Source: Pleurocapsa minor GSE-CHR-MK 17-07R (GTDB lineage Bacteria > Chloroflexota > Anaerolineae > Aggregatilineales > Phototrophicaceae). Taken from it: a stretch of 64,000 nucleotides of DNA. Where the stretch lies: assembly GCA_019359125.1 (NCBI GenBank), contig JAHHHY010000015.1:1-64000 (forward strand), given 5' to 3'. The translations under genes were made by a program, and so were the position numbers. The notes below the pieces were generated by a model that was given only the letters and a program-made list of their open reading frames with translations, was not told where the DNA came from and searched no databases. Positions 16,391 through 43,500 of this stretch are shown here, in pieces. Positions within the stretch are counted from its first letter, which is position 1; every line of letters begins with the position of its first letter.

Positions 16391-17527
16391 TTAGCCCTGC
16401 GAGATGCCAAACTGGCCGTAGATGCCGCTGGAATACACGTACACATAGGTCTCCGGCACACCTTCTTCGTTCACCGGATTGGCGCCGACCCAGTCATACA
16501 GGTAGCGCGCATCGCTGATGCTGAGGTTGACACAGCCGCGGCTGCGGCGATAGCCAAAACCCTCGTGCCAGTAGGTGCCATGCAGGCTGATGCCATCGTT
16601 GAAGTACATCACCCACGGCACATCCTGCAGCGCATACGAGCGCGGGGAGCCCGCCGCACCGCTCATCGGGTCACGCGGGAGGCGCGCCCACACCTCATAC
16701 AGGCCCGGCGGGGTATCGGTCTGCGGCAGGCCGGTGGCCACCAGCGTCGCGTATACGGGGGTATCGTTCTCGTAGGCGATCAGGGTCTGTTCGTACAGGT
16801 CGACGGCGATCCAGCGGCCGGTCACATTTTCTGGCCGTTCGATCGGCTTGGCCACGGCGACCCAGCGCTGTTCCACCCACTCGTTCTCGCCAATCATGTA
16901 CCAGGTGACGCCGGCGGTGTCTTCGATTGAGGCGAACACGTTGAAGCGGTCATACTTGCGCATCAGGCGCTGGGTGTCCACATCCTGCTGACCGCCCGGA
17001 ACGCTGGCCGGGTACAGGTCAAACATCACCCAGCCAAACGGCTGTTCCAGCGCGTTCAGCACCTGCACCCCGGCGAAATACGACGCGGGCACATACTGGA
17101 TATCGCTTTCGCGCATCCAGCCGCCGCCCTGCACGCCGATCCAGCCCGGATTGCTGTTGATATCGGTGGCGATGACAAAGTTAAATCCTGGCTCGATGGT
17201 GCGCAGCACGTTGCCATCCGGCACTTCGAATACGCTTGCTTCTCCCTCGGTCACCACGCGCCAGTAGCTGTAGCTGTTCAGGGTTTGCAGGTCCAGCGGC
17301 ACTTCCACCACGCTCGGCTCTGGCTGCGAGGCCATCACGCGGGCGCAGTCTGCATCCGGGATAAAGCCCGTCTCCAGGATATCGGAACAGGCCAGATAGC
17401 CGACGGTGTGGTCGTTGTCATACAGAAATTCGACATCTGTGGTGGTTTGCGCGGCGGCCATGCTGACGCCGGACAGCGCGATTGCTGTGATAAATACCGC
17501 TGTGAGGCGACGTTGAACAGTCTTCAT
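16391..17527 (-). CDS. Secreted L,D-transpeptidase (YkuD domain)
   Basis: This enzyme would form 3-3 peptidoglycan cross-links or attach proteins to the wall. The 378-residue chain starts with a Sec signal peptide (cleavage near AAAQT). A long, probably SH3-like N-terminal region precedes the YkuD domain at about residues 250-360. The catalytic signature is intact: H316 and H321 in HGTYWH, and C332 in SRGCVNL. ATG 17527 is preferred because GAGGGAG lies upstream; the ATG at 17548 lacks a ribosome site. With the sortase and LysM proteins it indicates a peptidoglycan-based envelope. Confidence 0.9.
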   Translation of the reverse strand: MKTVQRRLTAVFITAIALSGVSMAAAQTTTDVEFLYDNDHTVGYLACSDILETGFIPDADCARVMASQPEPSVVEVPLDLQTLNSYSYWRVVTEGEASVFEVPDGNVLRTIEPGFNFVIATDINSNPGWIGVQGGGWMRESDIQYVPASYFAGVQVLNALEQPFGWVMFDLYPASVPGGQQDVDTQRLMRKYDRFNVFASIEDTAGVTWYMIGENEWVEQRWVAVAKPIERPENVTGRWIAVDLYEQTLIAYENDTPVYATLVATGLPQTDTPPGLYEVWARLPRDPMSGAAGSPRSYALQDVPWVMYFNDGISLHGTYWHEGFGYRRSRGCVNLSISDARYLYDWVGANPVNEEGVPETYVYVYSSGIYGQFGISQG

Positions 17528-17698
17528 ACGTGCGTCTCGCTCCCTCATTCACTATGCTATTCGTGGGCTGATGATCGTGCCAGTTTATCATATCGAAACG
17601 TCCAGTTTTAGATTTAGTTCATACGATTCACCTACGGAACCGCGCAGCGGACGCCCACTTTCCGGCGGCCTGCGCGTGCGGGCGGCGCGTCGGGCAGA

Positions 17699-17745: not shown

Positions 17746-19674
17746 ATGTGCGGGATTTGCGGCATCCTTGATTTGCGCGGACAGGAACGTGCCGACCTGA
17801 CGGTGGTGCGGGCGATGACCGAGCGCATCACCCATCGCGGGCCGGATGGCGATGGCTTTTATGCTGCGCGCAATATGGCGATGGGCATGCGCCGCCTCAG
17901 CATCATCGACGTGGCTGGCAGCGACCAGCCGCTGTATAACGAGAACGAACGCCTCGCGCTGGTCTTCAACGGCGAAATCTATAACTACCGCGAGCTGCGC
18001 GCCGCGCTGGAAGGCGGGCATCGCTTCCGCACGCAGGGCGACGGCGAGACGCTGATCCACTCGTATGAGCAGCACGGCACCGACTTCTTCGCGTCGCTGC
18101 GCGGCATGTATGCGTTCGCGCTGTATGATGCGCCGGAAGACACCACGCTGCTGGCGGTCGACCATATCGGCATGAAGCCGTTGTATCTGTGGGAACATGA
18201 CGGTCTGCTCTCGTTCGCCAGCGAGATCAAGTGCTTCCTGGCGGACCCGGCCTTCCGGCCCGAACTCAACCTGGATGTGCTGGATACGTATCTCTCGTTT
18301 GGCTACATGCTGGGCGAGCAGACAATCTTTCAGGGCGTGCGCCGCCTGATGCCCGGCCACTTTCTGCATATCGTGCGCGGCAGTGTGCGCCAGGAACGCT
18401 ACTGGGGCTTTGGCGAGGGCGTGGCCGGGCATACGCGCCTGGACGACGCGGCGGTGATCGAGCAGACGCGTGAGCGCATCCGCGAGAGCGTGCGCCTGCA
18501 TCTGCGCAGCGATGTGCCGTTGGGCCTGTTTCTGAGCGGCGGCATCGACTCGGCCGCCATGCTCAGTCTGATGTCTGCCGAGGCGGGCGGGGCGGTGGGC
18601 GAGCGCGTCAAGACCTTCACCGTGGGCTATAACTCCAGCACGCCGGACAATGAGCTGGCTCAGGCGCGCCGCATCGCCGGGCATTTTGGCGCCGACCATC
18701 ACGAGCGTGTCATCACGGCCGAGGACTGGTGGGACGGCTTCCAGCGCTACGTCTATCATCACGACGAGCCGAACGCGAATTCATCGGCCATTTCGCTGAT
18801 GCTGCTGAGCGAGGAAACCGCCAAACACGTCAAAGTCGTGCTGACCGGCCTGGGCGGGGACGAGCTGTTTGCCGGCTACAGCAACCACCGGCTGATCGCC
18901 CGCATCATGGCCGAGCATGCCAAATCGAGTCGCTCTGCGGCGGCGCGGTCGCTGGCGCACGGGTTGGGCCGCCTGGAATCGTATTATCCCGCCTTCAAAC
19001 GTTATCGCGGTCTGGGCGCACTGCCCACTGTGCTGCCACGCATCCGCCATCGCCTGCTGCCGCTGAACGAGGCGCTGCTGCGTTCGCAGTCGTTTGACGG
19101 CATGGTGTTCAGCGATGCGCTGCGCCGCCGCCTGTATAACTCGGCGCTGAAGGCGGCCACCGCGCATGGCTACAAGTCGACCACCTACGACGAGATTATC
19201 GCGCGCAGCCTGCGCCGCAACGGCAGCGACACCGCGCAGGCGCTGGTCATCAATACCTGGCTGACGGGCAACGCGCTGCTGAACTGCGACAAGGTGACGA
19301 TGGCGCACAGCCTGGAAGCGCGGGTGCCGTTCTTCGACCCGCATCTGCTCGACTTCGCGGCGGTCATCCCGCCGGACCTGCGCATGACCAGCAATAAATA
19401 CGTGCTGCGCGAGGCCATGCGCCCGCTGCTGCCCGCGTTCGCGCTGGAGCGCCCAAAGCAGCCGTTTTCCACGCCGATTCTGGGCTGGTTTGCCGACGAA
19501 CTGGCCGGGCGCATTCAGGCCCGCCTGCGTGACCCGTCGGCGTTTGTGCGCCGCTACCTGAACACGCGCACGCTGGACGAGCTGCTCGATGGCCATTTCA
19601 GCGGCCGCGCCCCGCAGGTCGAGGTCGTCTTCCGCCTGCTCACGTTAGAGACATGGGCGGAAACGTTTATGTAA
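17746..19674 (+). CDS. asnB: Asparagine synthase (glutamine-hydrolysing)
   Basis: AsnB makes asparagine from aspartate, ATP and glutamine. The 642-residue protein starts MCGICGI, so Cys2 is free to be the glutaminase nucleophile. The N-terminal domain shows ITHRGPDGDGFY and LVFNGEIYNYRELR. The synthetase domain has the ATP pyrophosphatase loop LFLSGGIDSA (about 258-267) and GLGGDELFAGY. The length is usual for the family. In bacterial glycan clusters such proteins sometimes amidate other carboxylates, so a cell-surface role cannot be excluded, but its immediate neighbours do not suggest one. Its own extended -10 promoter lies upstream. Confidence 0.93.
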   Translation: MCGICGILDLRGQERADLTVVRAMTERITHRGPDGDGFYAARNMAMGMRRLSIIDVAGSDQPLYNENERLALVFNGEIYNYRELRAALEGGHRFRTQGDGETLIHSYEQHGTDFFASLRGMYAFALYDAPEDTTLLAVDHIGMKPLYLWEHDGLLSFASEIKCFLADPAFRPELNLDVLDTYLSFGYMLGEQTIFQGVRRLMPGHFLHIVRGSVRQERYWGFGEGVAGHTRLDDAAVIEQTRERIRESVRLHLRSDVPLGLFLSGGIDSAAMLSLMSAEAGGAVGERVKTFTVGYNSSTPDNELAQARRIAGHFGADHHERVITAEDWWDGFQRYVYHHDEPNANSSAISLMLLSEETAKHVKVVLTGLGGDELFAGYSNHRLIARIMAEHAKSSRSAAARSLAHGLGRLESYYPAFKRYRGLGALPTVLPRIRHRLLPLNEALLRSQSFDGMVFSDALRRRLYNSALKAATAHGYKSTTYDEIIARSLRRNGSDTAQALVINTWLTGNALLNCDKVTMAHSLEARVPFFDPHLLDFAAVIPPDLRMTSNKYVLREAMRPLLPAFALERPKQPFSTPILGWFADELAGRIQARLRDPSAFVRRYLNTRTLDELLDGHFSGRAPQVEVVFRLLTLETWAETFM

Positions 19675-19729
19675 TAATGAGTCTGAACATGCTATTATTT
19701 CTAAGTACCTTTCACTGAGAAAAAATATC

Positions 19730-20545
19730 ATGGAATCAGATCGACTTTTAGCTCCTGTGGAAGATGGATTGGAATATCGCGATTCTCAACCTTATGCAAA
19801 ACAGAAGCTAAAAAGCGTCAATTACTATTTGCAGCAAGCTATAACTGCGACTAAAGGAAAATTTCGGGATATTTGCTACTTAGACCTACAAGCAGGACCT
19901 GGAAAAAATAAGATAGGCTCAGAGATTGTGCTCGGTAGCCCACTGATTGCTTTGAATTTACCCAATCCTCCTACATTGCTCTTGTTTAACGAAGACAAGA
20001 AAAAACTAAGTGAAAGCTTGAAACAACGAGTGCAGGCAAGCCCTATCGCCGATAGGGTAAGGATCTTTAGAGAGGATGTAAATGATGTGGCTGGCAAAAT
20101 GATTGATGTTTTGCCAAATCGTGGTAAGTATTCATTGAACATTGCGTTCTTAGATCCAGAAGGTTTGGAAATCAATTGGTCAACAATTCAACTTTTGGCT
20201 GACGTCAGAAGAATGGATTTGATCATCAATTTTTCTTCGAGCGGTGTTAAAAGGTCACTACAGCACCCAGATAAACTGGATGCATTTTTTGGAACTCCAA
20301 ATTGGAGAGAAATTGATTTGAAGTCAACTCGAGCCATGGTTGATCTCTACTTGAGTAGACTTCGGGGATTTGGATATACGATTATCGAAGATCCAGAAAT
20401 TCCTGGTGAGGAAGTGCGAGTACGGAATTCCAAGAACGCAGAGTTATATACGATGATCTTTGCCAGCAAGCATCCTCTTGGAAACAAATTTTGGAAGAAC
20501 GCTGCGGATTCTACTAAACCACCGAGACTGCCGGGATTTGAATAG
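19730..20545 (+). CDS. tcmP: Three-Cys-motif partner protein TcmP
   Basis: The 271-residue product matches the TcmP family, defined by its constant association with DUF5131 (Gp37/Gp68-type, three-Cys-motif) proteins. Visible features are a Rossmann-like start (ICYLDLQAGPGKNKIGSEIV), a central IAFLDPEGLEINWSTIQLL and a C-terminal NAELYTMIFASKHPLGNKFW. The layout resembles SAM-type methyltransferases (DxxAGPG), but activity is not shown. Its gene is much more AT-rich than its neighbours, which suggests acquisition. It runs tail to tail into the DUF5131 gene with a 32-base overlap of the 3-prime ends. The ribosome site is weak (GAG at -13). The function of the pair is unknown; mobile and defence-type contexts are reported for it. 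Confidence 0.82.
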   Translation: MESDRLLAPVEDGLEYRDSQPYAKQKLKSVNYYLQQAITATKGKFRDICYLDLQAGPGKNKIGSEIVLGSPLIALNLPNPPTLLLFNEDKKKLSESLKQRVQASPIADRVRIFREDVNDVAGKMIDVLPNRGKYSLNIAFLDPEGLEINWSTIQLLADVRRMDLIINFSSSGVKRSLQHPDKLDAFFGTPNWREIDLKSTRAMVDLYLSRLRGFGYTIIEDPEIPGEEVRVRNSKNAELYTMIFASKHPLGNKFWKNAADSTKPPRLPGFE

Positions 20546-21296
20546 GTTTGTCCGGGAAGTCTTCTAACCACTTATCCAGCGGCCAGTCAAGATTTCCCTT
20601 GAAGAAGATCTTGGTCCCTTGAGCTTTAAGTACTTTTAGGGCATTCAATACCCAGTCGCGCTCTGGTTGATATGTCTTTGGGCCATTCGTGGCTGCGCCT
20701 ATCACAGCCCATTCCAAAGGACTGTCAACCAAAAGCGGGGCGATATTGAAACTCAATGGCTCAATGCTCATCCATCGGATCGGTACGCGAATGTTTCGCA
20801 GAACCTCCAGTTGCCTCTTTACCATGCGTTTCTGTTGGTCTGCACTTAACGGCTTTCCAAACATGAAAGATGGTGGGGCGCTCACGCCAACCCACACATT
20901 CTCAGGGATATCAAATTCCAAAAGACGAGGGGCGTTTTTGGTCAACAACTGAAATGAATGCCAGTGCGCCTGACGGCAGATATCAAATACCCGCTCTATT
21001 TCTTCAGCAGGTACCCAGTGACCCATAAGGTCGCTCATACTATCCAGAAAAATCTTGGACTGCGCCTTGATTTTGAGCGGCTCATCAAGAATTTCTGGTC
21101 TCCAGTAGTGGTGTTCAAATCCATGGGGATAGGCTGCCTGGGCAACTCGTTCAGCCACGGTTTCCGCATAGCACTCGGCAATCGACCCATCTGGCATCGT
21201 CCATCGACATGAATGTTTACAACCAGCAACAGGATTCCATGTGAAATCCGTCCATTCAATGCCGCGCTTGCGAACGGTTTTAAATTGCTTGTTCAT
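20514..21296 (-). CDS. DUF5131 (phage Gp37/Gp68-like) three-Cys-motif protein
   Basis: A 260-residue member of PF07505, a family resembling radical-SAM proteins. With the ATG at 21296 as start, the cysteines are C26, C30 and C42 (GCKHSC, then AECYAE). The family landmarks IEWTDFTWNPVAGC at the N-terminus, FLDSMSDLMG, FQLLTKNA and WVGVS are all present. ATG 21296 has GTGGGG immediately upstream; the GTG three codons earlier overlaps that site. It is the expected partner of TcmP, here convergent with it. A radical-SAM-type chemistry is inferred from the cysteines only; the spacing (C-x3-C-x11-C) is not the classical CxxxCxxC. Confidence 0.85.
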   Translation of the reverse strand: MNKQFKTVRKRGIEWTDFTWNPVAGCKHSCRWTMPDGSIAECYAETVAERVAQAAYPHGFEHHYWRPEILDEPLKIKAQSKIFLDSMSDLMGHWVPAEEIERVFDICRQAHWHSFQLLTKNAPRLLEFDIPENVWVGVSAPPSFMFGKPLSADQQKRMVKRQLEVLRNIRVPIRWMSIEPLSFNIAPLLVDSPLEWAVIGAATNGPKTYQPERDWVLNALKVLKAQGTKIFFKGNLDWPLDKWLEDFPDKPIQIPAVSVV

Positions 21297-21337
21297 TTTC
21301 CCCACTCGCTTTGACTTACCATAAAGTCTAAGATTAT

Positions 21338-21360
21338 GATTAAGAACTTTTGTTCTAATC
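21338..21360. promoter_or_regulatory. Inverted repeat upstream of DUF5131 gene
   Basis: GATTAAGAAC and GTTCTAATC are separated by four T residues and form a near-perfect dyad 42 bases before the DUF5131 start. It may be an operator or part of the promoter; it lacks a T-tract that would make it a terminator for this gene. Confidence 0.4.
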
Positions 21361-21383
21361 CTATCTTGCTTTGATAAAATAGT

Positions 21384-21418
21384 CTACCATTTGTAGTGAA
21401 TTTCTCTACAAACTGTAG
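21384..21418. promoter_or_regulatory. Pair of CTAC-N5-GTAG dyads, 22 bp apart
   Basis: CTACCATTTGTAG (21384-21396) and CTACAAACTGTAG (21406-21418) share the form CTAC-N5-GTAG and start exactly 22 bases apart, about two helical turns, so dimers would sit on one DNA face. The second copy resembles the TACA/TGTA half-sites of BlaI/MecI-type repressors. They lie in the region upstream of the DUF5131 gene. The cognate protein is not in the window. Confidence 0.45.
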
Positions 21419-21441
21419 TCTTCATCCCCTCATAAACGAAA

Positions 21442-21469
21442 AAGCCGACACAGGTTTTGACGTCGGCTT
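21442..21469 (-). terminator. Terminator-like hairpin, leftward
   Basis: AAGCCGAC and GTCGGCTT pair around a 12-base loop. Read leftward, the stem ends in TTTTTCG, so it could stop a leftward transcript starting within 21470-21569, where no gene is visible. It may be an orphan boundary of the AT-rich island. Confidence 0.45.
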
Positions 21470-21569
21470 CTTCAAAGAGGGAGGGAGAGATTTAGTTGTT
21501 CTTGGTTGAAAATCAGTATCGGCCGCCACGCTGAATGACGCATGAGTAAAACATCAGGGAAACCTAAAG

Positions 21570-22202
21570 ATGACCGACCACCCCGCGCTGACGCAGATTT
21601 ACCCGAATGTCAGCCTGCCCGTCGACGCGCAGATTGACCCGTTTGTGATTCTGGGCCAGCCCCCGCGCGGCGAGACGCCCGGTTCGCTGGCGCTGACGCT
21701 GGGCGCTGGCGCGGTAGTGCGCTCGCACACAGTCATCTACGCGGGCAACACGATTGGCGCGGGGCTGCAAACCGGGCATCATGTCACCATCCGCGAGCAT
21801 AATACCATCGGCCTGAATTTCAGCATCGGCACCGGCAGCATCGTCGAGCATCATGTCACGATTGGCGACGGCGTGCGCCTGCACAGCCGCGTGTTTGTGC
21901 CGGAATATTCGGTGCTGGAGGATGGCTGCTGGCTGGGGCCTGGCGTCACGGTGACGAATGCGCGCTATCCCGTCAGCAAACGCGTGAAAACGTCGCTTCA
22001 GGGCGCGCACATCGAGCGCGGGGCGATCATCGGCGCGAATGTGACGCTGCTGCCGGGCGTGCGCATCGGCGCGGGCGCGCTGGTGGGCGCGGGCAGCGTG
22101 GTCACGCATGATGTCGAGCCGGGCGCGGTCGTCATCGGCAATCCGGCCCGCTTCCTGCGCTGGAAAAGCGAGACGGGCGAGTATGGCGACTCAGGCGGCT
22201 GA
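21570..22202 (+). CDS. Left-handed beta-helix (hexapeptide) acyltransferase
   Basis: A 210-residue protein made largely of hexapeptide turns (LGAGAVVRSHTVI, IGAGLQTGHHVTI, IGDGVRLHSRVFV, IERGAIIGANVTLLPGV, IGAGALVGAGSVV), which form a trimeric left-handed beta-helix. It ends with GAVVIGNPARFLR, the standard exit motif of CoA-dependent acetyl- or acyltransferases (WbbJ/DapH-like). The probable catalytic histidines are in TGHHVTI and VEHHVTI. The acceptor is probably a nucleotide sugar or glycan, but nothing adjacent confirms this. It lies just right of the AT-rich island and has normal GC content. Confidence 0.85.
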   Translation: MTDHPALTQIYPNVSLPVDAQIDPFVILGQPPRGETPGSLALTLGAGAVVRSHTVIYAGNTIGAGLQTGHHVTIREHNTIGLNFSIGTGSIVEHHVTIGDGVRLHSRVFVPEYSVLEDGCWLGPGVTVTNARYPVSKRVKTSLQGAHIERGAIIGANVTLLPGVRIGAGALVGAGSVVTHDVEPGAVVIGNPARFLRWKSETGEYGDSGG

Positions 22203-42487: not shown

Positions 42488-42599
42488 CTTTTCCCTGATT
42501 CTTCAGCGGCATATTCGTTCGGCAGAGAAGACGCGTGTTGTCTCAGAAGAACAACCTGATGTGATCTGTTAGTTTGCAAGGTTGCGGGTTGAACGTCTG

Positions 42600-43295
42600 T
42601 CACCCATCCAGCCTGGCCCGCTTCTCCAGATTATGCTTTGCGCAGAGCAGTTGAATATTCTGGGCCGTCAGAGACGTGCCGCCCATTGAATACGGGATGA
42701 TATGATCAAAATGCAGATTCACCGTTGAGCCACACTTCTGACATTTGCCATCATCTCGCTTCCACACCTCCAGCTTTACCGATGCTGGAATCATGCGAGA
42801 ATGTTGCAGTTCAAGCAATTGCGACGAGCCAACTTGTTCCTCTTTAAAGACCAATTTAAATTTGAAGACAATCCGGGTCCCATCTGATTCAGTCCAGGCG
42901 TCCACCAAATCGAACAGGCCGTTGAATTCCCAAATGCCGGGTTTTAACTTCTCGTACAGGCGCACAATTTCAGCGGGAGCACGCCCCTCTTTATAGTCGT
43001 GCGCCGCCTGATAAAACAGCCCATTTTGAGTTAACGAGCCGCCTGGAAAGGACATTGGCTGATTTTCGCGTTTCGGATCACTGGAAGAAAAATCACTTCG
43101 TAAATCATGCCCCTCATACAGGACAATCTTTCCGCCATCCAGTTCAGCGTCACGATAAGGCGCGTTTGGTCTGAGACTCGACAGCAGGATTGTGCGGCCA
43201 AACGGTTTGCAGCGAAAATTCATTCCTGCCTGTAGGCGGGATCCTTCTTCAGCAGCAAGCTCGTCGTACGAGATAATCTGTCCAGGTTCAAACAT
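42600..43295 (-). CDS. SRA-like / HNH modification-dependent endonuclease
   Basis: A 231-residue restriction-type protein. The N-terminal 150 residues follow the SRA/YDG pattern for reading modified cytosine: GKIVLYEGHD, then LTQNGLFYQAAHDY, then WEFNGLFDLVDAW and VFKFKLVF. The C-terminal HNH nuclease (about 172-229) has CQKCG (C185, C188), the catalytic H198 in HFDHIIPYSMGG, N213 and a closing CAKHN. This is the architecture of type IV enzymes that cut methylated or hydroxymethylated foreign DNA. It is a single gene without a partner methylase. Its base composition is slightly more AT-rich than its neighbours, in line with transfer. Confidence 0.78.
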   Translation of the reverse strand: MFEPGQIISYDELAAEEGSRLQAGMNFRCKPFGRTILLSSLRPNAPYRDAELDGGKIVLYEGHDLRSDFSSSDPKRENQPMSFPGGSLTQNGLFYQAAHDYKEGRAPAEIVRLYEKLKPGIWEFNGLFDLVDAWTESDGTRIVFKFKLVFKEEQVGSSQLLELQHSRMIPASVKLEVWKRDDGKCQKCGSTVNLHFDHIIPYSMGGTSLTAQNIQLLCAKHNLEKRARLDG

Positions 43296-43471
43296 AGGTT
43301 CATATGCCAGTTGAAAACGATTGCACTAAATCAGGCAGCAGCGAAGTCATTTAGCAGTAACTTCCTTAATGCGCGTACAGGAGGATCATAACCCGCACTG
43401 CAACCTAATTCATATATGTGGATTATAGGCCAGATTTCAGCCTTTATCGCGGCTGGCGCGCAGCCACGAAT

Positions 43472-43500
43472 TTGACAACGCCCCCGCTTTTCCTCATAAT
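43472..43500 (+). promoter_or_regulatory. Promoter of the TetR-led fatty-acid cluster
   Basis: TTGACA (43472-43477), an exact 17-base spacer, CATAAT (43495-43500). The 24-bp palindrome at 43496 starts inside the -10 box. The leader to the TTG at 43552 is about 45 bases. Confidence 0.75.

Follow-up and report, generated by a model that had tools for sequence, protein, structure and literature searches.

Between asnB and a hexapeptide acyltransferase gene of Pleurocapsa minor GSE-CHR-MK 17-07R, two genes stand tail to tail in an AT-rich island, and the question raised by this locus is what kind of system they form and how it came to be there. The window analysed here is a stretch of 64,000 nucleotides (nt) of contig JAHHHY010000015.1, and coordinates are window positions throughout. 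The plus-strand gene (19730–20545; 271 amino acids, aa) encodes TcmP, which has a predicted methyltransferase-like fold of the Trm1/RlmJ kind and appears to be the exchangeable partner; the minus-strand gene (20514–21305; 263 aa) encodes a DUF5131 protein with the predicted fold of radical S-adenosylmethionine (SAM) enzymes, the constant partner, whose likely start is a conserved MNKQ at 21296. We read the island as an acquired copy of an SOS-inducible, nucleic-acid-modifying two-enzyme conflict module with TcmP as its variable part, a reading that we consider to have an even chance of being right. New here are the SOS-type box, the 45 out of 45 pairs that are convergent and AT-richer than their flanks, the exchange of TcmP cassettes, and the predicted folds with the CX3CX11C cysteine spacing.

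A convergent, AT-rich gene pair

Both family assignments are clear: TcmP scores 139 bits against TIGR04474 (cut-off 53) and DUF5131 scores 128.7 bits against PF07505 (gathering score 28.9). The two frames overlap by 32 nt at their ends (20514–20545). G+C content falls to 0.44–0.47 in three 1-kb segments between 19501 and 21500, with mostly 0.57–0.65 on either side, and the pair as a whole has 0.448, compared with 0.626 over some 21 kb of flanking sequence. The coordinates and the drop in G+C on which the original prediction was built are thereby confirmed. Its description of an island holding only TcmP and its partner stands as far as open frames of at least 100 aa are concerned, since no further one occurs there, but it had overlooked a LexA-type box at 21342–21357.

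Searching one genome of each species with the DUF5131 branch yielded 64 loci, 53 of them at ≥45% identity (51 of the 53 from Chloroflexota, judged by record titles), which together with the window make up the branch of 54 loci considered here. TcmP stands beside DUF5131 in 45 of these; among the nine others, three are contigs ending inside DUF5131, L114 ends about 200 nt past it, and L123 is disrupted. All 45 pairs are convergent, 31 overlap, and 43 are separated by no more than 39 nt, the gaps of about 200 nt in L089 and L090 being due to a broken DUF5131 frame. All 45 are also lower in G+C than their flanks, by a median of 10.6 points, the flank values of L079 and L108 being unreliable because these pairs lie less than 200 nt from the locus end. 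The 45 modules are spread over 27 contexts, one of which accounts for 16. A phylum-wide sample, in which 68 of 301 genomes were positive for TcmP (54 above the family cut-off), provided 30 loci with 25 pairs, five loci lacking DUF5131. Since 24 of these pairs are co-directional and one is divergent, convergence largely marks the present branch; outside it, we found convergent pairs on a Rhizobium plasmid (4-nt overlap), in Streptomyces (gap of 62 nt) and in Deinococcus (gap of 11 nt).

A LexA/SOS-type box upstream of DUF5131

The box in the window, TAGAACAAAAGTTCTT (21342–21357, minus strand), begins 61 nt upstream of the MNKQ at which DUF5131 likely starts, contains an exact AGAAC-N4-GTTCT, and resembles the operators of the genome's own lexA and recA. 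The exact palindrome occurs three times in this genome, before lexA, before the window's DUF5131 gene and before a BNR-repeat gene, and not once in the reversed control; a looser pattern gives five sites against one in the control, of which the two additional ones precede a NurA-domain gene and a gene whose protein matches no Pfam family. This rarity holds for the genome itself and not for the congener G002, where five palindromes face four in the reversed control (six against one in G007), one of the five lying upstream of G002's DUF5131. The NurA-domain nuclease gene (L291:233–1459), with its LexA-type box about 40 nt upstream, is likely an SOS gene of this lineage.

The upstream sequences of 16 modules suggested the consensus TAGAACA-N2-TGTTCTA, and in 44 of the 45 modules the 150 nt ahead of each start were scored for matches to its 14 positions. 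DUF5131 is preceded by a box of at least 11 matches in 41 of the 44, with 0.38 expected from dinucleotide shuffles; modules outside the consensus-building set reach this score in 25 of 28 cases, and 24 of the 27 contexts hold at least one such module. Among 473 other genes of the same loci, examined over the same distance, 17 reach a score of 10, one reaches 11 and none reaches 12. When 340 nt were allowed, a box of at least 10 was found before 13 of 14 recA genes (two of 16 loci yielded no gene) and before 13 of 14 frames picked as lexA, the miss being a spurious antisense frame (six of 20 loci yielded none). TcmP has a box of its own (≥11) in 16 of the 44 modules, with 0.3 expected, a count that is a lower bound because some starts are mis-set; the window's TcmP is without one. 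From these sequence comparisons we regard SOS-type control of DUF5131 as well supported. Neither this control nor the partner exchange described below had been foreseen by the original prediction, and among the titles and abstract openings listed from the open-licence literature searched, none linked DUF5131 or TcmP to LexA.

TcmP as an exchangeable cassette

The two partners have markedly different histories. In 38 modules compared (seven of the 45 were omitted for broken or truncated frames or as near-duplicates), DUF5131 is more conserved than TcmP in 702 of 703 comparisons, and the two identities are hardly correlated (r 0.13). Where DUF5131 is at least 65% identical, TcmP falls below 30% in 236 of 343 module pairs, and the TcmP proteins form six types at 33% identity. 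The pattern can be followed in L094, L095 and L096, which have neighbours in common: their DUF5131 proteins are 87.5–92.6% identical, their TcmP proteins 16.8–21.1%. DNA identity in 200-nt bins is mostly 0.8–0.97 over flanks and DUF5131, bar a few insertions, and 0.42–0.56 over TcmP, with the borders of the exchange in the last DUF5131 codons and just inside the TcmP leader, past a conserved box-like promoter segment. The G+C content at third codon positions (GC3) is native in the three DUF5131 genes (0.81, 0.79 and 0.87, against 0.78, 0.73 and 0.82 for the other genes) and foreign in the TcmP genes (0.45, 0.51 and 0.47). L106/L110 and L105/L116 of the large context repeat this exchange pattern. 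Over 43 modules (two omitted for having too few other genes), TcmP is lower in G+C than DUF5131 in 42, and DUF5131 lower than the other genes in 41. Co-directional pairs show mixing too (e.g., DUF5131 74%, TcmP 26%), though many match at both genes.

Unlike TcmP genes even stand side by side in L071, in L274 and in a Sinorhizobium meliloti locus. Two unlike TcmP genes accompany a single DUF5131 at L071:5455–7506, L274:316–2337 and L217:7956–10147, as if cassettes pile up until one of them is lost.

That TcmP is an exchangeable cassette beside a resident DUF5131 is, on this comparative evidence, well supported. It also bears on a toxin-antitoxin- or restriction-like addiction pair, in which TcmP would harm host nucleic acid and SOS-raised DUF5131 would undo or tolerate the damage. 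The invariably convergent order (45/45), the frequent overlap (31/45) and the AT-rich insertions in 27 contexts would suit such a pair, as tight tail-to-tail linkage would hold both genes together; against it, a specific antidote would hardly tolerate one DUF5131 group pairing with several of the six TcmP types, and DUF5131 occurs without TcmP in viral contigs as well as in L087, L093, L098 and L104. We consider the addiction pair improbable.

The viral contigs (L135–L151) hold 17 DUF5131 relatives, 15 of them at least 45% identical and nine with the CX3CX11C spacing; TcmP was found near none of the 17 within the stretch fetched, and none has a box of at least 11. These relatives are possibly donors of the gene or means of counter-defence.

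Predicted folds and catalytic motifs

Sequence searches against solved structures returned nothing usable (best E-values 0.89 and 1.1). Confident AlphaFold2 models of DUF5131 and TcmP were obtained, with a predicted local distance difference test score (pLDDT) of 94.4 and 93.3, respectively. With the DUF5131 model, Foldseek placed six spore photoproduct lyase entries at ranks 1–6 (E 1.2e-4 to 6.2e-4), and by Z-score the same enzyme leads with 13.8–14.0 over 197–199 residues, followed by RlmN (11.8) and viperin (11.5). In addition to the predicted barrel, three cluster cysteines of the radical SAM type (codons within 21171–21221, minus strand) are invariant in all 68 aligned proteins. They are spaced C-x3-C-x11-C with an MPDGS insert in the window, a departure from the canonical CX3CX2C that 52 of 53 close relatives have in common with it; the MPDG insert nearly always accompanies CX3CX11C in the branch, and other DUF5131 proteins have CX3CX2C or CX6CX2C. 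The TcmP model finds RlmJ first with Foldseek (E 2.6e-8), and by Z-score Trm1 (15.2) and RlmJ (15.1) are tied. In 39 TcmP proteins of the branch, residues D52, G58, D142 and G145 of motifs I and IV are invariant and P143 nearly so, one member reading D-A-W-G; the window's protein has DLQAGPG and DPEG at these positions, in keeping with a methyltransferase fold with motif I and a D-P motif IV, and the D-P-x-G motif IV is presumably like that of Trm1.

DUF5131 is, by its predicted model, a radical-SAM barrel like that of spore photoproduct lyase, and TcmP has, likewise as modelled, a methyltransferase fold like those of Trm1 and RlmJ, which bears out the radical-SAM-like and methyltransferase-like parts first proposed for the pair; the enzyme activities of both proteins we infer. 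The closeness of the TcmP fold to tRNA and rRNA methyltransferases would also suit a horizontally moving pair of unrelated use, such as the routine modification of tRNA or rRNA, in which case the AT-richness and the box would be coincidental. The box is far more frequent than by chance or in the control genes, and the partner exchange is sharp and repeated, so that this explanation seems to us the least probable of those considered.

Acquisition at the asnB locus

The left neighbour of the island, which lies outside the module, is asnB (17746–19674, plus strand; the name is that of the original prediction). Matches to it exist in 29 of 31 genomes, and apart from the window's own, none of the 29 asnB loci fetched with up to 1.5 kb of flank holds the pair. 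Two congeners, G010 and G011, whose asnB is 66–67% identical, are informative: they keep the order of the gene at 16391–17548 (presumably L,D-transpeptidase-like), asnB and an FHA gene; the last two lie some 190 nt apart, and both the pair and the acyltransferase are missing from this stretch. The remaining asnB loci do not reveal the site, since no other window gene matched beside asnB. After the asnB stop, both congeners have a hairpin and a GAGGG-rich tail which by eye, no statistics being attached, resemble 21438–21490 of the window; the window's hairpin (21438–21473) with its GAGGGAGGGAGAGATTT tail has this counterpart just 3′ of the asnB stop in the two congeners without the pair (L022 and L023), and is therefore most likely the native 3′ flank of asnB. 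From the conserved order and this counterpart, the entry point of the module was most likely between the asnB stop and its hairpin, which gives an acquired AT-rich insert of 1.76 kb (19675–21437). Of the two structures originally counted to the island, the dyad (21381–21421), formed by two CTAC-N5-GTAG palindromes 22 nt apart, lies within the insert, and the hairpin, though real, most likely lies outside it; we have rejected it as a part of the module. Among 16 modules inspected, the dyad with its CTAC-N5-GTAG pair was reported for that of the window and for none of the other 15.

Both module genes have low GC3 in the window (0.52 and 0.37, against 0.78), and because both are AT-rich, a recent arrival of the whole module fits; acquisition as one unit at this locus is consistent with their composition. 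TcmP is patchily distributed: within the genus, three of 15 genomes have it, and overall 19 of 61 (own genome counted), and in the two other congeners that have it, the TcmP contig differs from that of the best asnB match. With the site empty in G010 and G011 and such scattered presence, the pair is neither fixed here in all relatives nor of ordinary composition, and the idea of a mobile module holds.

The right neighbour, the hexapeptide acyltransferase gene (21570–22202, plus strand; PF00132), has ordinary composition yet is missing from both empty sites as well, and hence represents a separate gain or loss. A second dip in composition (42501–43500, G+C 0.49) surrounds a minus-strand frame at 42603–43295. 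Other candidate features of the island were rejected: three promoter-like and two terminator-like consensus sites compare with 2.8 and 1.8 in shuffled sequence, three Rfam matches are all far under gathering, and a tRNA attachment site finds no tRNA within the window.

Genomic neighbourhood, conflict and repair

We examined 88 of the 297 listed neighbour proteins, from 24 of the 27 contexts and without those of the window (E 1e-20). The original prediction had proposed a modification or defence system, to be checked by its enrichment in defence islands; fold parts and mobility support the candidate, but the enrichment was not borne out, as the 88 neighbours match three PADLOC families against 25 for 47 other proteins of the window taken as control (one match each, mostly PD-T4-6; families, not proteins, are counted). 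On these sampled neighbours, defence-island enrichment is rejected for this branch. Genes of the large context encode a DAHP synthase, a P-type ATPase, a UxuA-like dehydratase and a transporter. Within the branch, a Mrr-type nuclease gene adjoins TcmP in L082. Pairs of other branches occur next to abortive-infection genes (Leisingera) or in the vicinity of genes for a DNA methyltransferase and an integrase (Deinococcus); for S. meliloti, a published table lists the pair together with Hna (PMC12445080). On the Pseudomonas plasmids L218 and L222 (P. aeruginosa), the pair follows an integrase that is divergent from a DNA-binding gene, in the manner of a transposon passenger; one of the two records has mercury genes nearby, and the other has a Tn3-family transposase.

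Several observations speak against a conflict module. The three PADLOC families among the neighbours (mad3, PycC and AriA) have one match each, and of the 106 Pfam families matched by the 88 proteins, the 25 listed are household ones (e.g., ribonucleotide reductase, RNA polymerase, DnaB, dihydroxy-acid dehydratase and TPR repeats). Sixteen modules occupy a single fixed site, as a resident function would, the loci that document the exchange are metagenome assemblies, and motif I is degenerate in one of the TcmP types. A box of at least 11 is found at either gene in only six of the 25 pairs of the phylum sample (five before DUF5131, one before TcmP; in four of the five, DUF5131 is the second gene with the box directly upstream). 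Outside the Chloroflexota, in Streptomyces, Rhizobium, Sinorhizobium, Leisingera, Acetobacter, Deinococcus and Pseudomonas, no convincing LexA-type motif was seen; pattern searches came upon a GAAC-N4-GTTC core in Streptomyces (−153) and in S. meliloti (−14), which supports no claim. The mycobacterial comparison taken up below depends on a BCG annotation, with BCG_2748c presumed to be Rv2735c and Rv2734 a putative DUF5131 gene. Finally, among solved folds the closest to DUF5131 belongs to a DNA-repair enzyme, and proteins like it are known SOS genes elsewhere, which suits repair equally well.

The main rival is accordingly a DNA-repair pair, in which DUF5131 would reverse a base lesion by radical chemistry in the manner of spore photoproduct lyase, with TcmP taking part in lesion recognition or processing; SOS control would be its whole point, and the TcmP types would match different lesions or habitats. 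Besides the first six Foldseek ranks and Z-scores of 13.8–14.0 for spore photoproduct lyase ahead of RlmN, the household neighbours and a box type in common with lexA, recA and the NurA-domain gene argue for it, as does the description of SplB as a known or predicted SOS gene in several groups (PMC3323433; PMC8565304; PMC3765255) and of a radical-SAM protein as core SOS in Gram-positives (PMC7739468). On the other hand, a repair enzyme seldom has its partner at a given locus replaced by one of 17% identity, the phage-borne relatives are without a box (0 of 17 at ≥11), and defence genes accompany the pair in other branches. We regard repair as unlikely, though less so than the addiction pair. 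The turnover of TcmP beside a persisting DUF5131, and the acquisition of the module as a unit, lead us to weigh genetic conflict, most likely defence against phages or other elements, above fixed household repair, as judged from sequence.

A conflict module would be expected to work as follows. DNA damage, or SOS induction caused by a phage, would release LexA from the box and DUF5131 would be made, in some modules together with TcmP; TcmP would select and methylate a nucleic-acid target, and thereby form the variable part, and DUF5131 would perform a general radical reaction on TcmP's substrate or a linked one. More specifically, the branch may represent an SOS-triggered immune module acting through the modification of nucleic acids, with a resident LexA-controlled radical-SAM enzyme akin to spore photoproduct lyase, marked by its unusual CX3CX11C motif, and interchangeable methyltransferase-fold specificity cassettes at a fixed slot, a proposal that we put forward tentatively, as possible rather than probable. 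The LexA-type operator points to a definite inducer and makes for an easy test, the constant and exchangeable arrangement shows which part faces changing selection, and TcmP is widespread in the phylum, as the sampled genomes attest. If the module serves defence, radical-SAM chemistry under SOS control would be added to immunity; if it serves repair, spore photoproduct lyase would gain a new relative that comes with a partner.

Comparison with known systems

The literature searched offered no function for the TcmP/DUF5131 pair, in line with the original prediction of a module without known function; its status as a candidate defence pair is not new, because PADLOC already lists such pairs as PDC-M30 and PDC-M41. 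TcmP matches PDC-M41A (E 9.6e-20) and PDC-M30A (1.2e-13), and DUF5131 matches PDC-M41B (5.2e-41) and PDC-M30B (6.7e-40), with both components side by side in the window and the library giving no curated cut-off. The PDC systems are described as experimentally unvalidated candidates chosen through guilt by embedding; in a panel of 100 P. aeruginosa strains, PDC-M30 was predicted for 32, of which 68.8% were resistant (PMC10855318). Compared with these entries, the present branch is distinguished by convergent order, CX3CX11C, a LexA-type box and surroundings not enriched in defence genes.

In M. tuberculosis, Rv2734, Rv2735c, recX and recA are described as one cluster differentially expressed under mitomycin C (PMC5057432), Rv2735c as co-transcribed in part with recA (PMC3062782), and BCG_2748c as having a TcmP domain (PMC7387457). 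Going by their names, Rv2734 and Rv2735c are adjacent and lie on opposite strands, and they belong to a mitomycin-responsive cluster with recA and recX. They may differ from the present pair, to which they are putatively related, in that expression from the recA operon, and not from a box of their own, is possible.

Spore photoproduct lyase (SplB) is the nearest solved fold to the DUF5131 model (Z 14.0; root-mean-square deviation 2.9 over 197 residues), with 11% identity. Its cysteine motif is CX3CX2C, whereas DUF5131 of this branch has CX3CX11C and, in 45 of 54 loci, a TcmP partner. Trm1 and RlmJ, which are N-methyltransferases, stand nearest to the TcmP model (Z 15.2 and 15.1) at 12–17% identity; unlike these fixed tRNA and rRNA enzymes, TcmP is a hypervariable partner protein. 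By its name, the NCBI family TIGR04471 (radical SAM mobile pair protein A) likewise comprises radical-SAM proteins of mobile gene pairs, and membership was rejected at 34.5 bits against a cut-off of 355. The logic of the proposed module would resemble that of restriction systems that swap specificity subunits, to which it would add radical chemistry.

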